In this document: in pieces, positions 1 through 36,962 of the stretch | Layout of the letters: every line of letters starts with the position of its first letter | Position numbering within the stretch: the stretch's first letter is position 1 | From: a virus | Virus record (IMG/VR): IMGVR_UViG_3300010149_000007 | Span: 1 to 36,962 of that record | DNA: 36,962 bases | Strand: one strand, 5' to 3' | Position numbers and translations under genes: made by a program | Notes under the pieces: model-generated | What the model was told of the DNA's origin: nothing | Databases searched by the model: none | What the model saw: the letters and a program-made list of their open reading frames with translations, nothing else

Positions 1-123
1 CCTGAGCGCATCTGACATCAACTCATAGAGTCGAGTATAGAGCAGATCAGCTGTGTGATAATCGAGGATCTCTTTGGCTGTTTTGACCTCGTAGTCACAT
101 GAAGAAACGAGCACTGAGCGCAC
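1..123. repeat. Terminal direct repeat, left copy
   Basis: These 123 bases are identical to 36840-36962. A gene reads straight through the join when the copies are merged, so the overlap most simply reflects a circular or circularly permuted molecule rather than a biological long terminal repeat. The unit length is then 36,839 bp. Confidence 0.95.
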
Positions 124-387
124 TCGAAACTTAGCATCAGGATAGATCTCTTTATAGTTGACGTGTAGCTTAGAGTTGAAGTCGTTAGGCTCGAAGCAAA
201 TAGGGAGCCCAGCATCTTCTGATAAAGAATTGGCTGCTTCAGCTAGCTTAAGCGCTGTGTCTTTAAAAGCGTCAAGATCTCCACTGATTACACGCGATAA
301 GTAACCATAAGAGACACCAGCTTTATCAGATAACTTTCTAGTGGTGATTGTTCTGAGTTGTGATCTTTTTGCAGGGTGCAAGCTCAT
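1..387 (-). CDS. HTH transcriptional regulator, N-terminal part (split by window ends)
   Basis: Read on the minus strand from ATG 387, this gives 129 codons ending exactly at base 1. The frame continues at 36839-36774, making a 150-aa protein. Residues about 15-38 (RKLSDKAGVSYGYLSRVISG) form a Cro/C1- or LacI-like helix-turn-helix with the A-G-V turn. The C-terminal part (about 65-150) is not recognised and could be a dimerisation or sensor domain. It is transcribed divergently from the replication initiator across a repeat-bearing control region, the usual place of a phage repressor or Cro-like protein (inference). Start choice: AAGGAG lies only one base from ATG 387 but about seven bases from the in-frame TTG at 381, so the true start may be TTG 381. 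Confidence 0.8.
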   Translation of the reverse strand, partial: MSLHPAKRSQLRTITTRKLSDKAGVSYGYLSRVISGDLDAFKDTALKLAEAANSLSEDAGLPICFEPNDFNSKLHVNYKEIYPDAKFRVRSVLVSSCDYEVKTAKEILDYHTADLLYTRLYELMSDALR

Positions 388-524
388 TCTCCTTGTATAA
401 GTCTGATGTGAAATATACAACATGATATATTCAACATGTGATAATCAACATGTGATATATAATGTTTGACATGAACTTTAAATCGTGTCAAATACTTTAT
501 GAAACTTTTTGACAAGGAGGGAAG
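388..524. promoter_or_regulatory. Divergent control region between leftward and rightward early operons
   Basis: This AT-rich intergenic stretch separates the HTH regulator (minus) from the replication initiator (plus). It carries three tandem 14-bp repeats (417-458). On the plus strand there is a TTGACA at 466-471 with a poor -10 (CAAATA, 489-494) at 17-bp spacing. The initiator has a strong site, AGGAGG at 515-520, four bases before ATG 525. By analogy with other phage switch regions the HTH protein probably binds here; nothing in the sequence proves it. Confidence 0.6.
417..458. repeat. Three tandem 14-bp operator-like repeats
   Basis: ACAACATGATATAT (417-430), TCAACATGTGATAA (431-444) and TCAACATGTGATAT (445-458) follow head to tail with exact 14-bp periodicity. 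The core contains the palindrome ACATGT in copies 2 and 3. They lie between the divergent early genes, so they are candidate binding sites for the 150-aa HTH protein, or alternatively iterons. Confidence 0.65.
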
Positions 525-1214
525 ATGAAACAACATGAAGTCATGGAGTTGGCTATAAAAAGCCCATTTAAAAACGGTGCTAAGATTGTCCTGATGACTC
601 TCTGTTACAAGCTAGATTGGAATACTTGGTCACGTCCTATGGCAGTCGACTACATGCAAGAGTTTATCTTTCATGGTAGCGTCTCGCGTAATACCATCAC
701 CCGAGCATTTAAGGATCTTGAGAAGGCCGGAGTAATCACCCGAGAGACTATTCCAGGAGGAAGTCTCAAAGTCGTCTATCTACATGTGGAAGCATTGCGC
801 TCTCTAGTAGAGTCACAGCCCAATATGGGTCAACCCAAAATGGGTCAACCCAAAATGGGCCAACCCAATATGGGTCAAAGGTCGGCCCAAAATGGGTCAA
901 GGGTCAACCCAAAATGGGTCAAGGGTCAACCCAAAATGGGTCACAATATAATTAATAATAATCTAGATAATAATCTAAATAATAATCTAGAGCGCACGCG
1001 AGAACCCGAACCACAACATCAGGCAACTACTCAGCGCCAAGTCTTAAAAGTCTATGTGCCAACTATGGAAGAGAGAGAACAGGCTCTTCAAGCTGTACTA
1101 GACAAAGACCAAGCAAGAAGAGACGCGATGTATGCACACCTATCACCCGAGCGACGAGCACTTGAAGAGAGTTTGGCTCGTTCACAAGCACTGAAAGTAG
1201 AGACCTATAAATGA
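525..1214 (+). CDS. Replication initiator with N-terminal winged helix
   Basis: A 229-aa protein. Residues 1-90 look like a winged-helix domain of phage O-type/replisome-organiser initiators, with a recognition-helix-like stretch NTITRAFKDLEKAGVI. Residues about 99-139 are encoded by seven DNA iterons and about 140-155 by an AT-rich Asn-rich stretch, so the middle is a flexible linker that houses the origin. The basic/acidic C-terminal 75 residues probably contact the helicase loader or host DnaB (inference from lambda O). The gene starts after AGGAGG and ends with an ATGA overlap to the DnaC-like loader, the same gene order as other O/P-type modules. No sequence search was possible, so the family assignment rests on fold-like features, context and embedded iterons. 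Confidence 0.75.
   Translation: MKQHEVMELAIKSPFKNGAKIVLMTLCYKLDWNTWSRPMAVDYMQEFIFHGSVSRNTITRAFKDLEKAGVITRETIPGGSLKVVYLHVEALRSLVESQPNMGQPKMGQPKMGQPNMGQRSAQNGSRVNPKWVKGQPKMGHNIINNNLDNNLNNNLERTREPEPQHQATTQRQVLKVYVPTMEEREQALQAVLDKDQARRDAMYAHLSPERRALEESLARSQALKVETYK
819..940 (+). repeat. Origin iterons: seven CCCAAAATGGG-type repeats
   Basis: The 11-mer CCCAAWATGGG, itself an inverted repeat (CCCA-WWW-TGGG), occurs at 819, 834, 849, 864, 886, 908 and 930. Spacing is 15 bp between the first four and 22 bp between the last four. Because 22 is not a multiple of three, the same DNA is read in three different frames (QPKMG, AQNGS, NPKWV), which shows that the DNA and not the peptide is conserved. The position inside the initiator gene matches the lambda O/ori arrangement. 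Confidence 0.85.
943..990 (+). other. AT-rich unwinding element of the phage origin
   Basis: Directly after the iterons comes an almost purely A/T segment ending in three tandem 12-bp units: ATAATAATCTAG (955-966), ATAATAATCTAA (967-978) and ATAATAATCTAG (979-990). Tandem AT-rich 12/13-mers beside iterons are typical duplex-unwinding elements. They encode an Asn/Leu-rich run in the initiator. Confidence 0.8.
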
Positions 1215-2200
1215 TTGATAACGAAAAACACAATTCAGAGATGACACGCTTCAGAGTCACAGAGGAAGCAATTCAAAGCCTCAAAGACTATCGAGCAAAG
1301 CTCAAACAGCATTCACCAGCTCCTAAGAAGTTTAAGGACTTCAGCCACGTCAACCCATCAAACCTTGAAGCTCTAGACTGGATTGATACCGAGGCTATGA
1401 CACTCAGATGCAAGCCAGTTCCTTATTGTGGTGAGTGTCTGCAGGGTTGGTTTTACGAGCGTATTCAAGGGATGACTGCTCTTGATGCTGTGATGTGTAA
1501 GAGATGCGAGAAGCCAAGACGATGGATGAAACGTCTCAACAATATGAACCTGCCAACGGATGCAATAGGGATGAGCTTTGATACTTATGAAGCAGACTCT
1601 CCACAACAACTAGAGGCCATCCAACGAGCATTGGAGTGGTTGAGAACCCCTGACGTTTCAACAATTCCACACCTTAAGCGCGCACCAAATATATTTTTGT
1701 ATGGCCCACCGGGGAACGGGAAAAGCTCGTTACTCTATGCCTATGCACGTGAGGCAGCCACCTGTAGCAAGACAATTTGGAGAGATGGTAAAAGGAACCC
1801 CAAAGCTATAAAGGTCAAGTTCATATCCCATAACCAACTGCTTAACGACATCAAGAAAACATGGAATGATAAACACGCTCAAGACCCTCTCAAAGACTGG
1901 CTTGATGGAGTTGATGTGCTTTTAATTGATGAGTTTGGTGGGGTCGGTGGGTCTGCTAATCAGAGTGCTTGGTGGAGAGAGAAAACTATTGAGTTATTAC
2001 AACAGTTCTCTCAGTTATGGACAGCTGGTAAGCTCCAAGTGATCCTGACTACTAATCTTTCACCGCGACAAGTGCTAGAGTCTTTGGGTCGCAACTCAGC
2101 GGCTCATAGTCGTCTCGGCGCTATGTTTCCCGAGCCCATTAAGATGGTAGGTAGAGACCGACGAATCGAAAGAGTAAACGCTAGCGCGTGGGGATTTTAA
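1211..2200 (+). CDS. DnaC-like AAA+ helicase loader
   Basis: A 329-aa protein with Walker A GPPGNGKS at 165-172, Walker B VLLIDEF at 236-242, a sensor-1-like TTN at 280-282 and an arginine-finger-like SRLGAMF at 300-306. This is the layout of DnaC/IstB-type helicase loaders, which place the replicative helicase on initiator-opened DNA. An N-terminal region carries four cysteines as C-x2-C (73, 76) and C-x2-C (96, 99), likely a zinc finger, as in DnaI-like loaders. It overlaps the initiator by ATGA, implying coupled translation. No helicase gene is present, so the host helicase is the expected partner. A hairpin follows the stop. Confidence 0.88.
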   Translation: MIDNEKHNSEMTRFRVTEEAIQSLKDYRAKLKQHSPAPKKFKDFSHVNPSNLEALDWIDTEAMTLRCKPVPYCGECLQGWFYERIQGMTALDAVMCKRCEKPRRWMKRLNNMNLPTDAIGMSFDTYEADSPQQLEAIQRALEWLRTPDVSTIPHLKRAPNIFLYGPPGNGKSSLLYAYAREAATCSKTIWRDGKRNPKAIKVKFISHNQLLNDIKKTWNDKHAQDPLKDWLDGVDVLLIDEFGGVGGSANQSAWWREKTIELLQQFSQLWTAGKLQVILTTNLSPRQVLESLGRNSAAHSRLGAMFPEPIKMVGRDRRIERVNASAWGF

Positions 2201-2422: not shown

Positions 2423-2821
2423 ATGATCAATCAAGTAACACTTGTCGGCAATCTAGGCGATAATGCAGAGCTACGGACTACTCAAAGTGGAACCCCGTAT
2501 ACTTACGCTCGACTCGCGACTAACGAGAATTACAAAGATAGGCAGGGGAATTGGCAAAAATCTACTGAGTGGCACAGCATCAAGATTTGGGGCAACTCCT
2601 CAAATCGAGCGGCTCAGGTACTCGTCAAGGGTAAAAAAGTGTATGTGCAGGGGCAACTAAAGAGCCACCAAAACCAAGAGGGTAAGCGTTTTTGGGAAGT
2701 TCGCGTTGATACCTGGTTCGTACTCGACAAAGAAGATAAAAAGGAAGACCAATTCCTGCCTCCCGAACCGAGCTACTCTCATAACCCCAGCCCTTTTGGA
2801 GAGGGCTTCACTCGTAGATAA
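2423..2821 (+). CDS. ssb: Single-stranded DNA-binding protein
   Basis: A 132-aa SSB. It opens with the family signature MINQVTLVGNLGDNAELR, followed by the OB-fold strands TPYTYARLAT, the WHSIKIWGN segment and the KVYVQGQL strand (about residues 1-105). The C-terminal 25 residues are a short Pro/Ser-rich tail. It ends GEGFTRR rather than with the acidic DDDIPF tip of cellular SSBs, so recruitment of host SSB-tip partners may be lost (inference). It protects ssDNA made at the embedded origin and may act with the RecT-like annealing protein coded on the other strand. Confidence 0.93.
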   Translation: MINQVTLVGNLGDNAELRTTQSGTPYTYARLATNENYKDRQGNWQKSTEWHSIKIWGNSSNRAAQVLVKGKKVYVQGQLKSHQNQEGKRFWEVRVDTWFVLDKEDKKEDQFLPPEPSYSHNPSPFGEGFTRR

Positions 2822-2867: not shown

Positions 2868-4910
2868 ATGAGTAAACTAATAACTAAACAAATGATCGAC
2901 CATGACCCCACCGCCAGCCTAAGCAGAGCTTATCGTGAGATGGGGCCTAATCAATTTCTACGAGAGGTCATTCAAAACGCTGAAGAGGCCGGAGCGTCAC
3001 AGATACGCTTTATTGATGTTGATGGTCAATTAGGCTGTTTTGATGATGGATGTGGTATGAGTCCTAATGAGCTGCTTAAGCTTATCAATGGTCGAAACTC
3101 ATCAACGAAGAACAGAGAAGGAGTCCACGCTAACTTTGGTATTGGCCTCAAAGACTCAACGCTAGCCGGTAATCATTATGGTGTAGTCGTTGTATCTCGA
3201 ACCGAAGAATACCCCCAAGGCGCTATGATTTGGATGCATATTGACAGCCAGGGAACAGCAGGCGCTAAGTTGATTGTATCTGATGAGATCCGCACAAAGC
3301 TCAAAACAGAGTATGAGCATGAAGCAGCTACTGAATTTTTGGTGGATCACCGCGAGTCTTTTTATGCTGTGGACTTTGGCAAGGTCAGCGAGTTTTTTAA
3401 TACTTCCTCATATACTGTCGATGGCATCGACTGGATGAGCCTTTTAGATTGTCATCGTGGGAACCCTTATAATACAAGCATCATATTGATGGGAATGTCT
3501 CCCGATCATGAAACAAGTGCTGAATATCTCTCTTTTAAGGATCGCACGCGACGCTTGAACAAATTGGCTTATAATTATATTGGGTCAAGATATTATGACT
3601 TCAAATTAAAAGTGGGTACTCGAAGCCGCTCGTTTAAAAGTAATCAATCTTCTCTCAAAGATTATCTATTAGATATACTTGTTGTGGATGGGTTTACAAT
3701 TAAGGTTTATCTCAAAGAAAAGTATTGTCAGAAAACGAGAGCTAATAAAAACCCTCTCAACTCATTTTTTGAGCGCTTCGGCTTTATTACCGCGCTTCTA
3801 TATAAGAATGAGCTTTATGACGTGGTAAGCGCATACTCTCACCGACAGATCATTCATCAAGCTCGCCAGTGGGGACTTCACTTCCCTGAGGTTTACAACC
3901 GAGTAAAGATCATTGTGGAACCCCCACATTATGATGAGGATACTGGAATCGGTTGTTTTCCATCATCGACCCGAGCAGGGCTTTTTTATACAGATCCACG
4001 TATTAATTATGGGCCTGATAAAGGAGTACCCTTACAAGAGGTTAAAGCCGCGTTTATCAAAAACATGCCCAAAGAGATCAGAGATCTACAAGCAGAAGCG
4101 TATGAAAAACAGATGGAAAAGAGTCTCGATGGCTCAGCGTCTGCGAAATACCGAAAGTTTTTCAAGGTTCATAAAGAGCGCCCAAGCCTCACCCAGGGAG
4201 ATGGTAGCGCATTGGTCGATCTATCTAAAGAAGGCTCACTGGCTGAGCTAGAAGAGTTGTTAGGGTTTAGAGAGAGAAAGAAGGTAGAGCCTCAGCCCCC
4301 CAACCCCGTAGATGATCTACAACCTAACCCCAACCCCAACCCCAACCCTAAGCCGAAAAATAATGAAGCTGTCGAAGGTGGGTTGTTTGGAGAAAAAAGA
4401 GCAAAGAAGAAGTTAAAGTCAGAGCTACCCTCTGTGATCTTTGTGCATCCCGAGCGAAACCCCGATAGCCAAGGCTTGGCGCTCTTGACCTCTGAGAATG
4501 GGAAGTTGTTCCCTTATGCTTACACTGGCGCTTCATTGGCAGGCTCAGGAAATATCCTATACGTTAACGAGAGTTCTACTATGCTTGATGGGTACATTAA
4601 CGCGGCTGAGCACTCCCTAAGGGATAAAGAGCCTATGTCACGTCAAGCTATACTCGATGAAGTGGTTAAGCCTTTCATAGTTGAGCATCTACCTGCATCT
4701 ATCGAACACGCTAGATCTAATAAAGAGCTTTTACAGCTTGGTGTTGATGTCACTAAACCTGAGCACATTTCATTAATGTTAGCCGGAGCCTGGCAGCAGG
4801 TGAGCAACTCCCCGACTGTTTACTACAAGCGATACCGTACCAAGATTGAAGCGCTAGGAGATGCTAATGAACCGAACCCCACGACAAATGAGCCCCATAG
4901 CGAGACATAG
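2868..4910 (+). CDS. GHKL-type ATPase of unknown function
   Basis: A 680-aa protein with the Bergerat ATP-binding fold at its N-terminus: N-box LREVIQNAEEAG (31-42; E33 and N37), G1 box FDDGCGM (58-64) and G2 box NFGIGLK (89-95). These motifs are shared by Hsp90, MutL, GyrB/TopoVIB, MORC and sacsin-like proteins. The middle part is not recognised. A proline/asparagine linker at about 475-500, encoded by repeated CCCCAA, separates a C-terminal domain of about 170 residues of unknown type. It has no kinase H-box and no DNA-cleavage tyrosine that I can identify, so it is neither a histidine kinase nor a complete topoisomerase. Its position after ssb suggests a role in replication, recombination or chromatin-like remodelling of phage DNA (inference). 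The gene overlaps the next one by 44 bases. Confidence 0.75.
   Translation: MSKLITKQMIDHDPTASLSRAYREMGPNQFLREVIQNAEEAGASQIRFIDVDGQLGCFDDGCGMSPNELLKLINGRNSSTKNREGVHANFGIGLKDSTLAGNHYGVVVVSRTEEYPQGAMIWMHIDSQGTAGAKLIVSDEIRTKLKTEYEHEAATEFLVDHRESFYAVDFGKVSEFFNTSSYTVDGIDWMSLLDCHRGNPYNTSIILMGMSPDHETSAEYLSFKDRTRRLNKLAYNYIGSRYYDFKLKVGTRSRSFKSNQSSLKDYLLDILVVDGFTIKVYLKEKYCQKTRANKNPLNSFFERFGFITALLYKNELYDVVSAYSHRQIIHQARQWGLHFPEVYNRVKIIVEPPHYDEDTGIGCFPSSTRAGLFYTDPRINYGPDKGVPLQEVKAAFIKNMPKEIRDLQAEAYEKQMEKSLDGSASAKYRKFFKVHKERPSLTQGDGSALVDLSKEGSLAELEELLGFRERKKVEPQPPNPVDDLQPNPNPNPNPKPKNNEAVEGGLFGEKRAKKKLKSELPSVIFVHPERNPDSQGLALLTSENGKLFPYAYTGASLAGSGNILYVNESSTMLDGYINAAEHSLRDKEPMSRQAILDEVVKPFIVEHLPASIEHARSNKELLQLGVDVTKPEHISLMLAGAWQQVSNSPTVYYKRYRTKIEALGDANEPNPTTNEPHSET
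4328..4348 (-). other. G-quadruplex-type CCCCAA tract
   Basis: Runs CCCC, CCCC, CCCC and CCC are spaced by AA, giving G3-G4-G4-G4 with 2-nt loops on the minus strand. It resembles ciliate telomere repeats and encodes the Pro-Asn linker of the GHKL ATPase. The linker alone may explain it. Confidence 0.5.
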
Positions 4911-5061
4911 CGCCGCAAACAAACTACAGGCCGCACGTGAGCTCTTAGGAGCTCCACCCAAAAAAGTTAGAGAACCAACGCTTATACGCTGGCCTATCGA
5001 GCTGTTACCCACTGAGTTCACTGATGAGGAGTTGAGAACATTGCCGGAGTTTTTGAGATGA
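4867..5061 (+). CDS. Small basic protein of unknown function (64 aa)
   Basis: Starting at ATG 4867, which is six bases after AGGAG (4856-4860); the in-frame ATG 4861 abuts the AGGAG and is unlikely. The protein begins very basic (MNRTPRQMSPIARHSAANK) and ends acidic (TDEELRTLPEFLR), with no membrane segment. The start lies inside the end of the GHKL gene and its stop overlaps the start of the STPR-like gene at 5058, so the three are probably translated as a coupled set. Function not recognised; it could be a small partner of either neighbour. Confidence 0.6.
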   Translation: MNRTPRQMSPIARHSAANKLQAARELLGAPPKKVREPTLIRWPIELLPTEFTDEELRTLPEFLR

Positions 5062-5429
5062 CTAAAAATATACGCGCTAACGAGACCCCCGAGCAACGCG
5101 AGAAACGACTAGCCAAAGGTCGAGAGTATGAGCGCCTTAAGTATTCGCTGAAGATGAAACGAGAACTACCTGAGCAACGCGAGAAACGACTAGAACGCTG
5201 TAGGAATAGATACCATCAAATAGTAGCTAGTGAGACAGCCGAGCAAAAAGAGGAGCGCCTAGCTAAAGGTCGAGAGCAATATCAGCGCCATATTGAAAAA
5301 CGTAGGAAGTACCATCGAGAGTACAACCGTAAACAAAGAGCTAACGAGACCCCCCAGCAACGCGAGAAACGACTAGCGAAGCAAAGGGAATATTACCAAC
5401 GAACAAAAGAGAAGAATGAACAGAGCTAG
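5058..5429 (+). CDS. STPR-like repeat protein, probable DNA-binding
   Basis: A 123-aa, highly charged helical protein built from a repeated unit with the pattern E-T-P-E-Q-R-E-K-R-L-A-x-x-R-E-Y. Units begin at about residues 9, 36, 59 and 97. The unit resembles the about 23-residue STPR repeat (score-and-three-amino-acid repeat) described for the silkworm DNA-binding protein FMBP-1. The first and last units are also close at DNA level (around 5075-5115 and 5339-5380), indicating recent duplication. It follows the GHKL ATPase and 64-aa genes with a 4-base overlap. A role as a nucleoid-type or operator-binding protein is inference; a plain coiled coil is the alternative. Confidence 0.55.
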   Translation: MTKNIRANETPEQREKRLAKGREYERLKYSLKMKRELPEQREKRLERCRNRYHQIVASETAEQKEERLAKGREQYQRHIEKRRKYHREYNRKQRANETPQQREKRLAKQREYYQRTKEKNEQS

Positions 5430-8609: not shown

Positions 8610-9065
8610 ATGAATAAACACATCAAGCTGAGAATTGATCAAGCTAAGCTACTGGCTCAGAGTTCACCCTGCCCACGTGGTCAAGTGGGGGCCGTAATCT
8701 TCGACGGTGAGAGCTGGGCTATTATTGCAGACGGGTATAATGGAGCGCCACGGGGTGGGGGTGAATTGTGTGGTGATCACACTTGCACTAGAGATGATCT
8801 CAATATCATTTCAGGAACATCTGTAGAAATAGGCTGCCACCATGCAGAAGCTAACGCGCTATGTAATGCGGCGAGACTTGGATCTTCTACGCTTGGTGCT
8901 TCGCTAGCTGTGACTCGAGACCCTTGTTTAAATTGCGCTAAACTTATTCACCATGCAGGGATAGTAAAAGTGTACTCACCATCACTAGAAGGTGAGGCCG
9001 GAGTCTCTTACCTTCTAAAGCATGGAGTGGAGGTACTGCCATGGAGATCAAAGAACGCAGACTAG
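8610..9065 (+). CDS. dCMP/cytidine deaminase family protein
   Basis: A zinc-dependent deaminase of 151 aa when started at ATG 8610. An upstream in-frame ATG at 8538 would add 24 residues lying entirely in thyX, without homology-like features. Motifs: N-terminal KHIKLRIDQAKLLAQ helix, CPRGQVGAVI, catalytic HAE at 78-80 and zinc-binding PCLNC at 105-109. This is the dCMP deaminase arrangement (dCMP to dUMP), feeding ThyX. The last 25 bases overlap the cyclase gene, so the nucleotide cluster and the signalling pair may be one transcription unit. Confidence 0.88.
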   Translation: MNKHIKLRIDQAKLLAQSSPCPRGQVGAVIFDGESWAIIADGYNGAPRGGGELCGDHTCTRDDLNIISGTSVEIGCHHAEANALCNAARLGSSTLGASLAVTRDPCLNCAKLIHHAGIVKVYSPSLEGEAGVSYLLKHGVEVLPWRSKNAD

Positions 9066-9823
9066 CAATAGTACTACTCGACCTCATAGGCTCAACTGCT
9101 TTTGTACAACGAGCCGGAGCTATGAAGGCGGCGGAGTGGCTCCAATATCACGACAGGCTCACGCGCTCTCTGATGTATCGCTTCGAGGGTCGAGAGATAG
9201 ATAGGTCAGATGGTTTTTTACTCTCATTTGAAAGATCTATTGATGCTGTCAACTTTGCTCTCACGTATCAATCCACTATCCCACCAAGGGTTAAACTCAA
9301 TACTAGAATAGGTATTCATGTGGGGAATGTGGCAGAGGTAACTCAGTCTGAGCTAGATACTTTAGGCGGTGCAAAGCCTATTGAGTTAGAGGGAATCGCT
9401 AAAAACATAGCTGCTAGAACGATGAGCGTTTGCACAGCTGGACAAGTCCTATTGACCTCTGAGGCTATGAGCGCAATACAAGGCAGAGTAAATATACATA
9501 CCCCCAAAGGCACGCGGTATGTATGTGTAGGCTTGTATCGATTTAAAGGGGTGGCTGAGCCTGTTTCACTTTACGCAGTAGGCTCAACTCTCGACAGCCT
9601 ACAACCCCCACCCAACTCCGAGAAGGTCAAGAGATTAGGTGGCCCTAAAAAAGTGAGGAGTCGCGCACGTGATAGAAAAATAATAGAATGGCTTTGGTGG
9701 ATCATTCCAAGGCTTCTGATTATTGAGGTAGTCTACTTGATGGGCCTAATGTGGCCTTGGTTCTCGAATAAGCCAACCATTAAAGCTATCTTGGAGTTTA
9801 TCAACAATGGACATGGGCAATAA
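9041..9823 (+). CDS. Class III nucleotide cyclase with C-terminal membrane anchor
   Basis: A 260-aa protein. Residues 8-182 match the class III adenylate/guanylate cyclase homology domain: LLDLIGST with metal Asp D14, SDGFLLSF with second metal Asp D57, RIGIHVGNV (89-97), and KNIAAR with the transition-state pair N122 and R126, ending in YRFKGVAEPVSLYAV. The expected Lys of the KTxGD motif is absent (REIDRSD instead), and the usual Asp/Thr partner is replaced around G118-I119, so the substrate may not be ATP. A basic linker leads to a hydrophobic segment at about 214-241, a likely membrane anchor. It starts after GGAGG (9029-9033) and overlaps the deaminase by 25 bp and the next gene by 17 bp. 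Class III cyclases include the Pycsar defence cyclases; relation to them is inference. Confidence 0.85.
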   Translation: MEIKERRLAIVLLDLIGSTAFVQRAGAMKAAEWLQYHDRLTRSLMYRFEGREIDRSDGFLLSFERSIDAVNFALTYQSTIPPRVKLNTRIGIHVGNVAEVTQSELDTLGGAKPIELEGIAKNIAARTMSVCTAGQVLLTSEAMSAIQGRVNIHTPKGTRYVCVGLYRFKGVAEPVSLYAVGSTLDSLQPPPNSEKVKRLGGPKKVRSRARDRKIIEWLWWIIPRLLIIEVVYLMGLMWPWFSNKPTIKAILEFINNGHGQ

Positions 9824-29750: not shown

Positions 29751-32135
29751 ATGAGTATGAATGCACAAGGTTTTGGTGGAGGAGGTGGCTCAGTGGCAGA
29801 CGCAACAGAGACGACAGCAGGAAAGATTCGCATAGCTACGAGCGCGGAAGCTGCGACAGGAACTAGTGATATAATCGCTATGACTCCTCTTACAGTTAAA
29901 GAGGTAGTGGATGCCTCTAAGGTGGGTGTCTTCGAATATCAGACGACATTCAACGCGACAGCAGGGACTCCATCTATTGCTAATGCTGAGCAGGGAGACG
30001 TTTATATTATCGGCACAGCTGGCACTATCTACGGTAAGGATTGGAATGTTGGAGACCACCTAATTATCAATGCTGATATGGGTGGCACAGTCACTAATTC
30101 AAAGATAGATAAGGTTGATAACACTGATAACGACGCAAGCGAGACGGTTAAAGGTGTTATCGAGATTGCGACGAATGCCGAAGCCGGAGCAGGAACAGCC
30201 ACCGACAAGGCTCTTGTACCGAGTAACGTTAGCTCTTTAGCTATTACTTCAGGTCAGGTTGCAGGGCTTGCGACAGTAGCGACTTCAGGAGCGTATTCTG
30301 ATCTTAGCGGAACCCCAACACTTGCGACAGTAGCGACTTCAGGAGCTTACTCAGACCTTAGCGGAACTCCAACACTAGGGACAGCATCTGCTCTTGATGA
30401 GGGAGAGGACGCAAATAATTTAGTTCAACTTGATGGCTCTGCTCGTCTGCCAGCTGTGGATGGTTCGCAATTAACGAACCTACCAAGCGCAAGTGATGCA
30501 AGCGAGACAGTTAAGGGTGTTATAGAGATTGCGACGAATACCGAGGCCGGAGCAGGAACAGCCACCGACAAGGCTCTTGTACCGAGTAACGTTAGCTCTT
30601 TAGCTATTGCTTCAGGTCAGGTTTCAGGGCTTGCAACTGTAGCGACTTCAGGAGCGTATTCTGATCTTAGCGGAGCTCCAACGCTTGGGACTGCCTCGGC
30701 AGCTAATACAGGCGATTTCTTAGCCTCAACAGCAGGTCTTAATAATCTCTCTGACGTTGCCATAAGTTCGATCAGCAATGGTCAGGTGATCTCATATAAC
30801 TCCACATCAGGAGATTGGGAAAACTCGACCCCTGCTAGTGGTGGCGCTACTGATCTTGATGGTTTAAGCGATGTGACTATCACTACACCTGCTAGCGGTA
30901 ACTTGTTACAACATAATGGCTCAGGTCAGTTTGTAAATGTTGCCAAGAGTACTATTGATGTAGGCTCATTCAATGATGATGGAACCTATCAACCACTAGA
31001 TGCAGGTCTCACCTCTATTAGTGGTCTGACCACCTCAGCCAACAAGATGGTTTACACCACGGCTAGCGATACTTACGCGGTGGCTGATCTTACTTCAGCG
31101 GGACGGGCTTTGCTCGATGATGCCACAGCCTCAGCGCAACGTACTACGCTTGGGTTAGGCTCAGCGGCTCTACTTGATGAGGGAGAGGACGCAAATAATT
31201 TAGTTCAGCTTGATGGCTCTGCTCGTCTGCCAGCTGTGGATGGGTCACAGCTCACTAATCTACCAAGCGCAAGTGATGCAAGCGAGACAGTTAAAGGTAT
31301 CATTGAGATTGCGACGAATGCCGAAGCCGGAGCAGGAACAGCCACCGACAAGGCTCTTGTACCGAGTAACGTTAGCTCTTTAGCTATTACTTCAGGTCAG
31401 GTCTCCGGGCTTGCAACTGTGGCGACTTCAGGAGCGTACTCAGATCTAAGTGGAACTCCAACGCTTGCAACTGTGGCGACTTCAGGAGCGTATGCTGATC
31501 TTAGCGGGACTCCAACGCTCTTGTCTGCTGTGGTCGATGATAGCACCCCACAGCTTGGAGGTGACCTTGACGTTAATGGTAATGATCTAATCACTACATC
31601 AAATGCAAACTTAGCTTTAGCCCCAAACGGTACCGGATACGTCGAGGTCAAGGGGAATACAAACCCAGGAGCGATTAGATTAAACTGTGAGAGCAACTCA
31701 CATGGCATACAAATCCAAAGCCCTCCGCACTCAGCTACAGCTACATATAATCTGATCCTACCAACGGGTGTTGGTATTGACGGGCAAGTGCTGAAAACAG
31801 ATGGCGGAGATGGCGGAGACCCTGATACAGTTCAACTGTCATGGGTAGATCAGGCTTCAGGCGGGGGTGGGTGGACATATAGTTCCATCACAGCAGACCC
31901 AGCCAACGCTCAAGCAGGGTATCACTATTCATGCACAGGAACCTTCACCATAACACTCCCAACTTCAGGAGTATCATCAGGTGAAGAAATTAGGATCAAA
32001 AATATGGGAACTGGTACTATCACCATCGATCCACAGACCCAAAACATCGACGGTTCAACCAATGATTATGTGATGGATGTGCAATATTCATCCATCACGC
32101 TAGTTTCCACCGGAACACATTGGGAGGTAATCTAA
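29751..32135 (+). CDS. Tail fibre protein with modular repeats
   Basis: A 794-aa fibre-type protein. It contains three copies of a module with ETVKGVIEIATN, GTATDKALVPSNVSSLAI and GLATVATSGAYSDLSGTPTL, the TxDKAxxPxN motif known from many phage fibres. It also has LSDVxI-type repeats and a Gly-rich hinge at about 705 before a 90-residue C-terminal knob ending in SSITLVSTGTHWEVI. The knob likely binds the receptor and the shaft likely trimerises. The DNA repeats are nearly identical, so module gain or loss by recombination is expected. TAATG overlap with the next fibre gene. Confidence 0.8.
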   Translation: MSMNAQGFGGGGGSVADATETTAGKIRIATSAEAATGTSDIIAMTPLTVKEVVDASKVGVFEYQTTFNATAGTPSIANAEQGDVYIIGTAGTIYGKDWNVGDHLIINADMGGTVTNSKIDKVDNTDNDASETVKGVIEIATNAEAGAGTATDKALVPSNVSSLAITSGQVAGLATVATSGAYSDLSGTPTLATVATSGAYSDLSGTPTLGTASALDEGEDANNLVQLDGSARLPAVDGSQLTNLPSASDASETVKGVIEIATNTEAGAGTATDKALVPSNVSSLAIASGQVSGLATVATSGAYSDLSGAPTLGTASAANTGDFLASTAGLNNLSDVAISSISNGQVISYNSTSGDWENSTPASGGATDLDGLSDVTITTPASGNLLQHNGSGQFVNVAKSTIDVGSFNDDGTYQPLDAGLTSISGLTTSANKMVYTTASDTYAVADLTSAGRALLDDATASAQRTTLGLGSAALLDEGEDANNLVQLDGSARLPAVDGSQLTNLPSASDASETVKGIIEIATNAEAGAGTATDKALVPSNVSSLAITSGQVSGLATVATSGAYSDLSGTPTLATVATSGAYADLSGTPTLLSAVVDDSTPQLGGDLDVNGNDLITTSNANLALAPNGTGYVEVKGNTNPGAIRLNCESNSHGIQIQSPPHSATATYNLILPTGVGIDGQVLKTDGGDGGDPDTVQLSWVDQASGGGGWTYSSITADPANAQAGYHYSCTGTFTITLPTSGVSSGEEIRIKNMGTGTITIDPQTQNIDGSTNDYVMDVQYSSITLVSTGTHWEVI
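30135..31400 (+). repeat. Three long near-identical repeats in the tail fibre gene
   Basis: Units of about 120 bp starting near 30135, 30498 and 31278 differ by only a few bases. A second element of about 75 bp (around 30391 and 31170, coding LDEGEDANNLVQLDGSARLP) is also duplicated. A third short element coding ATVATSGAYSDLSGTPTL occurs about five times. The high DNA identity indicates recent duplication or gene conversion. Confidence 0.85.
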
Positions 32136-34485: not shown

Positions 34486-34721
34486 TGAATATCACCCCTG
34501 AGTTTTTAACGTTAGGAGTTGCTATTATTGGGCTTGTTGTAAAGGCGAGTCAGGACAAGGCGGTTAACGCTGAAGAGATGGGCCGATTAAAGCAGCAGGT
34601 GGTATCTCTAGAAACCCGCGGTAGAGGTTGGGATACTCGCTTCGAGAGCATTGAGGCAAAATGTTCTGAATTGATAGCTTCTTCAGCGAGAATCGAAGCT
34701 CTACTCAACCAACGAGATTAA
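34482..34721 (+). CDS. Small membrane protein with coiled coil (79 aa)
   Basis: One N-terminal TM segment (FLTLGVAIIGLVVKA) followed by an amphipathic coiled coil (EEMGRLKQQVVSLETR and onward). This is the design of haemolysin XhlA-like or class III holin-type lysis accessories. It starts with an ATGA overlap and its last 17 bases overlap the end of the convergent RecT-like gene. It is the last gene of the rightward block. Confidence 0.55.
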   Translation: MMNITPEFLTLGVAIIGLVVKASQDKAVNAEEMGRLKQQVVSLETRGRGWDTRFESIEAKCSELIASSARIEALLNQRD

Positions 34722-35841
34722 GTATTGTAGTGGGTGATAGTTGGTTAGCCCCTTGGCGAGACCATTGTTCAACATAAACTCTTGCAGTCTCTAGTAGATC
34801 ACCTGAATAACAGCTAGAAATCTTTACGGATTCCCAAAAAAATTGGTCTCCCAACGTTTGCCCGATTTCTCGACCACCAAGACCCGAGAGCACTGGAAAC
34901 TCTTGATGAAGCTGAGCAATGATATGCTTGCTCTCCCCCACATTTCTCCACCAATTAGGCTCCAAAGATGAGTTTCGTAATGTGTCGCTCATGAGCCACT
35001 CATAGAAGAACTGCTGTCGTTGCTCCGGTGTGGCTTTATCAGCGTGAAATCCTAATCTCTGCATGCAAGCGTTAGCTTCACTTAGTGGGATTTCATTAAA
35101 TTCACATGCTGTTCTTATTTGAGATACTTTTGAGAACTCGACAAATTGAGAAGGGGTGACCTCTCCTACTCTTTTATATCGTGGGGGTGGTGTTGAGTTC
35201 ATGTGAGGTCGAGCTGCTTGTGGTCGCTGAGACTGTGGAGCTCGTTGGGCTTGTGGTCGCTGAGACTGTGGAGCTCGTTGGGCTTGTGGTCGCTGAGTAC
35301 CTACCTCTTCACCAATCGCTTGAGCTGTGATGTGAGTGCGCTCATCATCTGACATAGACATATTATCAGCGATCTCATCAGCGCTGTAGATGCCTGAGCA
35401 AGCATCAGGGAATGTAGCGCGGAGCGCCATAGTCAGACAGCGTACTCGCAACATCTGTAGAGGCATGGTTTGCCAATTTCGATTTCGAGTGAGACCCTGC
35501 TGAGTGGCCATTTCCATGGTATAAACGAAAGTATGAACGATCTCTTCAGGCTCATCACGTCGCGCCACTTTCATTACACAGATTTCAGTAGTCCATTCAA
35601 CGACCTGCATAAAACGAACAAGTCCTGAGCGTCTACAGATACCAGCCATAGCGTCTGCGTTAAGAGCCGGCTTCCCCTTGAGAGAGTAGGCTTGAGTCAT
35701 CAGCTTACCAAGATCACCACCAAAGTGATCACCAAAAGCGGCATGGCATTGAATGAGCTCTTGAGCTTCTTTCTGTGAATTGGTGAGTAATGAGGCAATA
35801 TCAATGGCCTCTTGAATGTTTTTTGGTGTGTAAATACTCAT
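34705..35841 (-). CDS. RecT-like single-strand annealing protein
   Basis: A 378-aa protein. Residues about 35-170 follow RecT-type recombinases: GKPALNADAMAGICRRSG, VEWTTEICVMKVARRDEP, the WQTMPLQMLRVRCLTMALRA helix and FPDACSGIYSADEI, equivalent to the common MLR...A..F...GIY...E motif. A flexible Gln/Pro/Arg linker (about 180-215) has two 11-residue repeats, RPQAQRAPQSQ, encoded by 33-bp tandem DNA repeats. The C-terminal 160 residues are an unrecognised extension. No partner exonuclease was seen. It is the last gene of the leftward operon. Confidence 0.75.
   Translation of the reverse strand: MSIYTPKNIQEAIDIASLLTNSQKEAQELIQCHAAFGDHFGGDLGKLMTQAYSLKGKPALNADAMAGICRRSGLVRFMQVVEWTTEICVMKVARRDEPEEIVHTFVYTMEMATQQGLTRNRNWQTMPLQMLRVRCLTMALRATFPDACSGIYSADEIADNMSMSDDERTHITAQAIGEEVGTQRPQAQRAPQSQRPQAQRAPQSQRPQAARPHMNSTPPPRYKRVGEVTPSQFVEFSKVSQIRTACEFNEIPLSEANACMQRLGFHADKATPEQRQQFFYEWLMSDTLRNSSLEPNWWRNVGESKHIIAQLHQEFPVLSGLGGREIGQTLGDQFFWESVKISSCYSGDLLETARVYVEQWSRQGANQLSPTTILNLVG
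35217..35297. repeat. 33-bp tandem repeats in the recT-like gene
   Basis: Units at 35217-35249 and 35250-35282 are identical, followed by a 15-bp partial unit at 35283-35297. They encode the disordered Arg/Pro/Gln linker. Copy number is likely to vary by slippage. Confidence 0.85.
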
Positions 35842-36773: not shown

Positions 36774-36962
36774 TTACTCCTCCTCTCCTTCAAAGTAGTA
36801 AATGTGATCCGAGTAAGTGAACGTATGACACTTCTCATACCTGAGCGCATCTGACATCAACTCATAGAGTCGAGTATAGAGCAGATCAGCTGTGTGATAA
36901 TCGAGGATCTCTTTGGCTGTTTTGACCTCGTAGTCACATGAAGAAACGAGCACTGAGCGCAC
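36774..36962 (-). CDS. HTH transcriptional regulator, C-terminal part (continuation of 1..387)
   Basis: This is the end of the same 150-aa gene. Bases 36840-36962 duplicate 1-123, and the unique 3' portion is 36774-36839, coding the last 21 residues (ending in an acidic EGEEE) plus TAA. The in-frame GTG near 36962 is only an internal valine codon. The next gene of the leftward operon starts three bases downstream with its own strong ribosome binding site, so the regulator is probably co-transcribed with the genes it precedes. Confidence 0.8.
   Translation of the reverse strand: MRSVLVSSCDYEVKTAKEILDYHTADLLYTRLYELMSDALRYEKCHTFTYSDHIYYFEGEEE
36840..36962. repeat. Terminal direct repeat, right copy
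   Basis: This is the second copy of bases 1-123. It lies inside the helix-turn-helix gene, whose reading frame is uninterrupted across the join, which supports circular closure of the sequence. Confidence 0.95.

Follow-up and report, generated by a model that had tools for sequence, protein, structure and literature searches.

Does the array of palindromes that lies in the middle of a phage initiator gene serve as DNA, that is, as the origin of replication, or only as coding sequence? The question is raised by the IMG/VR virus record IMGVR_UViG_3300010149_000007, which we analyzed from position 1 to 36,962 on one strand (36,962 base pairs [bp]; hereafter the window). A lambda-O-like initiator of 229 amino acids (aa) is encoded at 525-1214, and its gene holds seven short repeats, or iterons, followed directly by AT-rich DNA. 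An initial annotation had proposed an origin within this gene. Comparison with related initiators supports that proposal, and we consider it highly probable that the array is a phage replication origin resembling lambda O/ori in its working, with origin activity itself extrapolated from lambda.

The iteron array and selection on its DNA

The seven CCCAAWATGGG sites, the change from 15-bp to 22-bp spacing, and the three AT-rich 12-mers described in the initial annotation were all confirmed, the sites at 819-940 and the 12-mers at 955-991. The gene and its elements are as follows (frames and steps in bp refer to iteron starts).

525-1214, plus strand: initiator gene (229 aa), lambda-O-like, with weak PHROG matches to O-like and replication-initiation families
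819-829, plus strand: iteron 1, CCCAATATGGG, frame 0
834-844, plus strand: iteron 2, CCCAAAATGGG, frame 0, step 15
849-859, plus strand: iteron 3, CCCAAAATGGG, frame 0, step 15
864-874, plus strand: iteron 4, CCCAATATGGG, frame 0, step 15
886-896, plus strand: iteron 5, CCCAAAATGGG, frame 1, step 22
908-918, plus strand: iteron 6, CCCAAAATGGG, frame 2, step 22
930-940, plus strand: iteron 7, CCCAAAATGGG, frame 0, step 22
943-992, no strand: putative DNA unwinding element, the AT-richest 50 bp of the genome (86% AT; next best 80%), containing the three 12-mers directly 3' of the array

The iteron core is a palindrome with the 13-bp consensus ACCCA-N3-TGGGT and not merely a direct repeat. Base composition predicts about 0.06 exact copies of CCCAWWWTGGG genome-wide, against the seven found, all of them in the array. 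When codons were redrawn with the peptide held fixed (20,000 trials, genome codon usage) no more than 5 sites appeared, and permuting the gene's own codons under the same constraint gave a maximum of 6. Iterons at 22-bp steps occupy all three reading frames (encoding PNMGQ, AQNGS, NPKWV and PKMGH), while those at 15-bp steps keep one.

Conservation of the iteron arms between species is real evidence, drawn from sequence comparison, for selection on the iteron DNA. Between the window and locus L017, whose initiator is 93% identical, none of 56 arm positions changed as against 24 of 80 fourfold sites outside the iterons (p=9e-7); iteron centers differed at 2 of 21 positions and spacers at 6 of 45, and the 60 bp after the array showed no change at all (Fisher p=0.0014). 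The pair L018/L030, which carries another iteron, gave the same picture (0/70 arm positions vs 24/55 fourfold sites, p=8e-11), as did the pairs L055/L051, L101/L102, L101/L104, L045/L043 and L044/L046. Arm changes amounted to 2 of 72 in L055/L053 (p=0.4 vs the rest of the gene), and for L100/L103 the regular expression picked up a single iteron, to which that comparison is confined. The initial annotation had taken the rotation of reading frames, seen also in lambda and in Bacillus phage PM1, as a clear sign of such selection. The conclusion stands on the unchanged arms, but rotation alone is insufficient, since duplication of a 22-bp unit produces it too. Absence of iterons at this gene position among relatives, named at the outset as evidence against an origin, is the opposite of what we found: close relatives keep the iterons exactly, and in more distant ones a different DNA-binding domain goes together with other palindromic iterons at that place in the gene.

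Spacing, diversity and exchange among related initiators

A profile search of IMG/VR with the neighboring helicase loader returned 80 loci, at which the gene upstream of the loader was nearly always a winged-helix initiator. Of 65 related initiators, 63 scored higher for repeats than any of 45 dinucleotide-shuffled genes. These carry about 21 iteron types as grouped by eye, 15 of which share a CA-N3-TG center, although the p-value for this center is only indicative and palindrome centers were imperfectly assigned at some loci (e.g., L035, L043, L045, L064). Examples are GTGCA-N5-TGCAC, TATGTCA-N3-TGACATA, TCCCTCA-N3-TGAGGGA, GTTATCA-N3-TGATAAC and TAGCTCATNATGAGCTA, among others. Over the 50 bp that follow the array on its 3' side, AT content lay above the gene's mean in 54 of 56 relatives, with a median percentile of 0.99. 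An exact tandem-iteron search of IMG/VR recovered only two known relatives besides L015, a chance pair in an apparent portal gene that we discarded; Bacillus phage Pony and Pseudomonas phage AH02, considered as comparators, have no comparable array. The TCCCTCA-N3-TGAGGGA iteron of the uncultured loci L036 and L041 is almost that of lambda, TCCCTCAAAACGAGGGA (L105), with proteins that are barely alike; the likeness may reflect shared ancestry or may be convergent.

Pooled distances below 40 bp between neighboring iterons (redundant loci included) fell mostly at 14-18 or 21-27 bp and never at 19 or 20, so that the two spacing arrangements suspected from the window alone recur as a bimodal distribution across relatives. 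The gap at 19-20 bp is a property of the window's family and not of all in-gene origins, because lambda iterons are spaced by 20, 24 and 23 bp. Where both classes occur in one locus (n=19), all tight steps precede all loose ones in 17, the exceptions being L078, which is mixed, and L068, which is reversed on the strength of a weak last match. This order spans at least seven iteron types. Judged across these loci, the change from 15 to 22 bp characterizes the family, and it is the loose steps that adjoin the AT-rich side.

Several pairs of phages have near-identical flanks yet diverge in nothing but the winged helix and the iterons, and for this reason we regard the two, on sequence grounds, as a single exchangeable specificity cassette that is swapped as a unit. 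L100 and L101 have loaders 97% and initiator C-termini 98% identical, but winged helices only 57% and iterons 55% identical. The corresponding values for L037/L038 are 93% and 90% against 51% and 41%, with identity returning to about 90% upstream of the gene. The same drop is seen in L031/L035, L102/L103 and L064/L067, the upstream flanks of the last two pairs not being similar. At greater distance, the window and L018 share a loader that is 79% identical and a winged helix that is only 19% identical, and the window's nearest winged helix outside L017 belongs to L035 (46%), whose loader is more distant. Across 45 initiators, iteron distance tracked winged-helix distance once loader distance was removed (partial r 0.275, permutation p<=0.0005), and loader distance added nothing once the winged helix was removed (partial r -0.025); kinship inflates both tests, and the pairs with recent swaps carry more weight.

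We also considered, as a speculation that we do not favor at present, an architectural rule that outlives the iteron sequence: tight distal and two-turn proximal sub-arrays would build two different initiator complexes, one for loading or regulation and one for melting, and the winged helix with its iterons would form an incompatibility-type cassette whose diversity is maintained by antagonists able to recognize origins. The distal steps (14-18 bp) might then lack helical phasing and the proximal ones (21-25 bp) lie beside the unwinding element, a geometry we advance just as tentatively. So too, and no less doubtfully, might the palindromes keep a mostly constant CA-N3-TG center while their outer bases vary.

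The initiator, its neighborhood and alternative explanations

Matches of the window initiator to PHROG families of O-like replication initiation proteins are individually weak (phrog_391, 4.7e-5; phrog_678, 1.6e-4), and the main O-like and replication-initiation families are matched by 15-23 of 30 relatives, phrog_678 by 23. An AlphaFold2 model built with 30 relatives predicts two structured parts (confidence as predicted local distance difference test, pLDDT).

525-812, plus strand: N-terminal winged-helix DNA-binding domain (aa 1-96, predicted; AlphaFold2 pLDDT of about 90 or more)
1065-1211, plus strand: C-terminal two-helix segment (aa 181-229; AlphaFold2)

The recognition helix of the predicted winged helix is about SVSRNTITRAFKDL. 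Residues 113-170, spanning most of the iteron-encoded part, are predicted to be disordered. The C-terminal segment is common to phages whose winged helices differ, which suggests that it contacts the loader. The genes around the initiator complete a replication block.

1-423, minus strand: divergent helix-turn-helix (HTH) gene, running from 423 to 1 and presumed to encode a repressor of the replication operon; cut only by the map ends (the record ends overlap by 123 bp)
424-524, no strand: divergent intergenic region with inverted repeats (repeat analysis), presumed operator/promoter
1211-2200, plus strand: DnaC/DnaI-like AAA+ helicase loader (PHROG phrog_50, E 2.8e-28; IstB/AAA/DnaA ATPase; DnaI/IstB)
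2423-2821, plus strand: single-strand DNA-binding protein (SSB; Pfam SSB, E 6.6e-26)

No sigma-70 consensus was found in the intergenic region. Direct and inverted repeats of the TTGACAT / ATGTCAA type lie at 409-512, between the HTH gene and the initiator, and similar motifs occur upstream of the initiator in relatives; they are probable repressor operators. The loader has Cys residues upstream of its AAA+ domain. A replicative helicase or polymerase was not recognized among the open reading frames (ORFs) scanned, which were only part of the total.

By analogy with lambda, the winged helix would bind the seven iterons, probably as a dimer and one per palindrome; the bent or wrapped array would open the adjoining AT-rich 12-mers in 943-992; and the C-terminal helices would recruit the neighboring DnaC-like loader, which would deliver the host helicase to the strand so exposed. 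The 22-bp-spaced iterons beside the AT-rich DNA lie about two helical turns apart, on one face of the helix, and probably form the melting core; those packed tightly on the distal side probably have an auxiliary role in concentrating or regulating the initiator, a reading drawn from lambda and Stx phages (PMC7466680).

Several results weigh against an O-type origin at this locus. The window initiator has no match to Pfam Phage_rep_O (PF04492), one relative reaching it below threshold (E 0.0017), and its alignment with lambda O by hhalign is equivocal (probability 5.6%, E 0.007, 54 winged-helix columns). Cumulative GC skew, proposed initially as a check, is weak and monotonic and gives no independent origin signal; we rejected it as a marker, since gene direction cannot be separated from replication. 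INPHARED phages yielded no initiator match and only distant loaders, and two loader scans of bacterial genome contigs gave no confirmed relative; neither a cultured relative nor a host came out of these searches. The recognition helix alone correlates with the half-site at r 0.27 overall and at 0.09 once close relatives (pairs with N-termini at least 60% identical) are dropped, with half-sites entered manually, and we claim no recognition-helix code.

If the palindromes were instead operator or centromere sites of the winged-helix protein, serving autorepression, partition or copy control, the origin would lie elsewhere. Palindromes do suit a dimeric repressor, and the predicted fold has MarR-type regulators and the plasmid segregation protein TubR as neighbors, none at a significant E-value. 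But the sites lie in mid-gene and not at a promoter, they adjoin the AT-richest stretch of the genome, the genes downstream encode a helicase loader and an SSB, the PHROG matches are to replication initiators, and a partition nucleoside triphosphatase was not seen among the ORFs scanned. We judge this explanation improbable, though the palindromes may have a second, regulatory role.

Mere tandem duplication of a coding linker, the DNA itself playing no part, is still harder to sustain. The repeats do fall in the predicted disordered linker, and 15- and 22-bp duplications would yield both the array and its frame rotation; against this, the arms are invariant between species where spacers, centers and fourfold sites vary, relatives retain the palindrome yet alter letters on both arms, and synonymous randomization falls short of the seven sites. 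Equally implausible is a relic, or an incompatibility or decoy determinant, in a phage that starts replication otherwise, such as by recombination with the RecT-like annealing protein encoded at 34705-35841, given that initiator and loader are intact, that purifying selection on the arms continues, and that phages with annealing proteins, lambda among them, also replicate from origins.

The replication block just weighed, read here as containing an in-gene origin, sits in a genome of about 36.8 kb that is probably complete, because the first and last 123 bases are identical (an exact direct terminal repeat, 1-123 and 36840-36962). Its genes include those for portal, major head, Mu-like protease, tail and RecT-like proteins and a recombinase-like fragment; the virus is therefore a tailed phage. 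A 260-aa protein (9041-9823, plus strand), beside dCMP deaminase and ThyX, resembles class III nucleotide cyclases (TIGR04510, E 5.6e-45 over 190 aa; LipJ, PDB 1ybt, E 2e-8; Pfam just below threshold), and a phage-encoded nucleotide cyclase, if true, would be unusual. The early region encodes a 680-aa GHKL ATPase with a sacsin/TmtA-like N-terminus (2868-4910, plus strand). A 123-aa protein with STPR repeats (5058-5429, plus strand; Pfam PF21107, E 1.6e-15) is unexpected for a phage. One 794-aa gene, likely for a tail protein, contains two distinct tandem repeats of 54 bp (30267-30384 and 31409-31519) whose units are almost identical, and a perfect 33-bp tandem repeat (35216-35297) lies within the RecT-like gene.

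Known systems and significance

The likeness to lambda proposed at first, with a different iteron, holds on comparison. Both have an initiator gene with an N-terminal DNA-binding domain, palindromic iterons in the gene and in several frames (lambda offsets 0,2,2,1 mod 3), an AT-rich stretch just 3' and a loader gene next. The window differs in having seven iterons in two spacing classes where lambda has four, in its 13-bp core, in an initiator with no match to Phage_rep_O and in a DnaC/DnaI-like AAA+ loader in place of lambda P. Each lambda iteron is an inverted repeat to which O binds as a dimer, bending the DNA, and the neighboring 40-bp AT-rich segment opens (PMC5043065). For lambda, the two iterons beside the AT-rich DNA suffice in vitro, and in Stx phages the extra distal iterons are bound weakly yet are required for plasmid establishment (PMC7466680).

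Bacillus phage PM1 has three palindromes, GTAAAGACGTCTTTAC, at 22-bp steps and in all three frames, with an adjacent loader weakly similar to that of the window; it differs in copy number, in its single spacing class and in its gene, whose annotation notes similarity to a DnaD replication protein. We know of no test of the PM1 repeats. Iteron plasmids (RK2, P1, R6K, pSC101) likewise set the repeats that their initiator recognizes next to AT-rich DNA that unwinds, but theirs are direct repeats outside rep, whereas the window has palindromes inside the gene and its initiator matches neither RepA_N nor any plasmid Rep family. A parallel for exchange is RepA of the PLE satellite of Vibrio cholerae, in which the iterons change in step with the DNA-binding domain and both are exchanged, the C-terminus being kept (PMC8263062). 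PLE iterons are intergenic, however, its initiator has RepA_N, and the likely driver of swapping is known there, the phage nuclease Odn.

Some of this is already known: in-gene iterons differ between relatives in lambdoid phages, with different iterons in the coding regions of lambda, P22 (gp18) and phage L (gp18) (PMC8022706), and PLE satellites exchange the DNA-binding domain and the origin together (PMC8263062). A limited literature search found no description of such iteron diversity on one loader lineage, nor of the tight-then-loose rule. That rule of two spacing classes is a concrete, testable claim about the assembly of O-type complexes, and the approximately 21 natural pairings of winged helix and iteron, together with recent swaps in near-identical backgrounds, constitute a data set on how initiators acquire new origins. 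The origins of PLE satellites alter their specificity and thereby evade a nuclease that targets origins (PMC8263062), and decoy copies of the lambda origin arrest that phage (PMC4488673). The swapping we describe echoes both and prompts one to ask which forces diversify the origins of uncultured phages.
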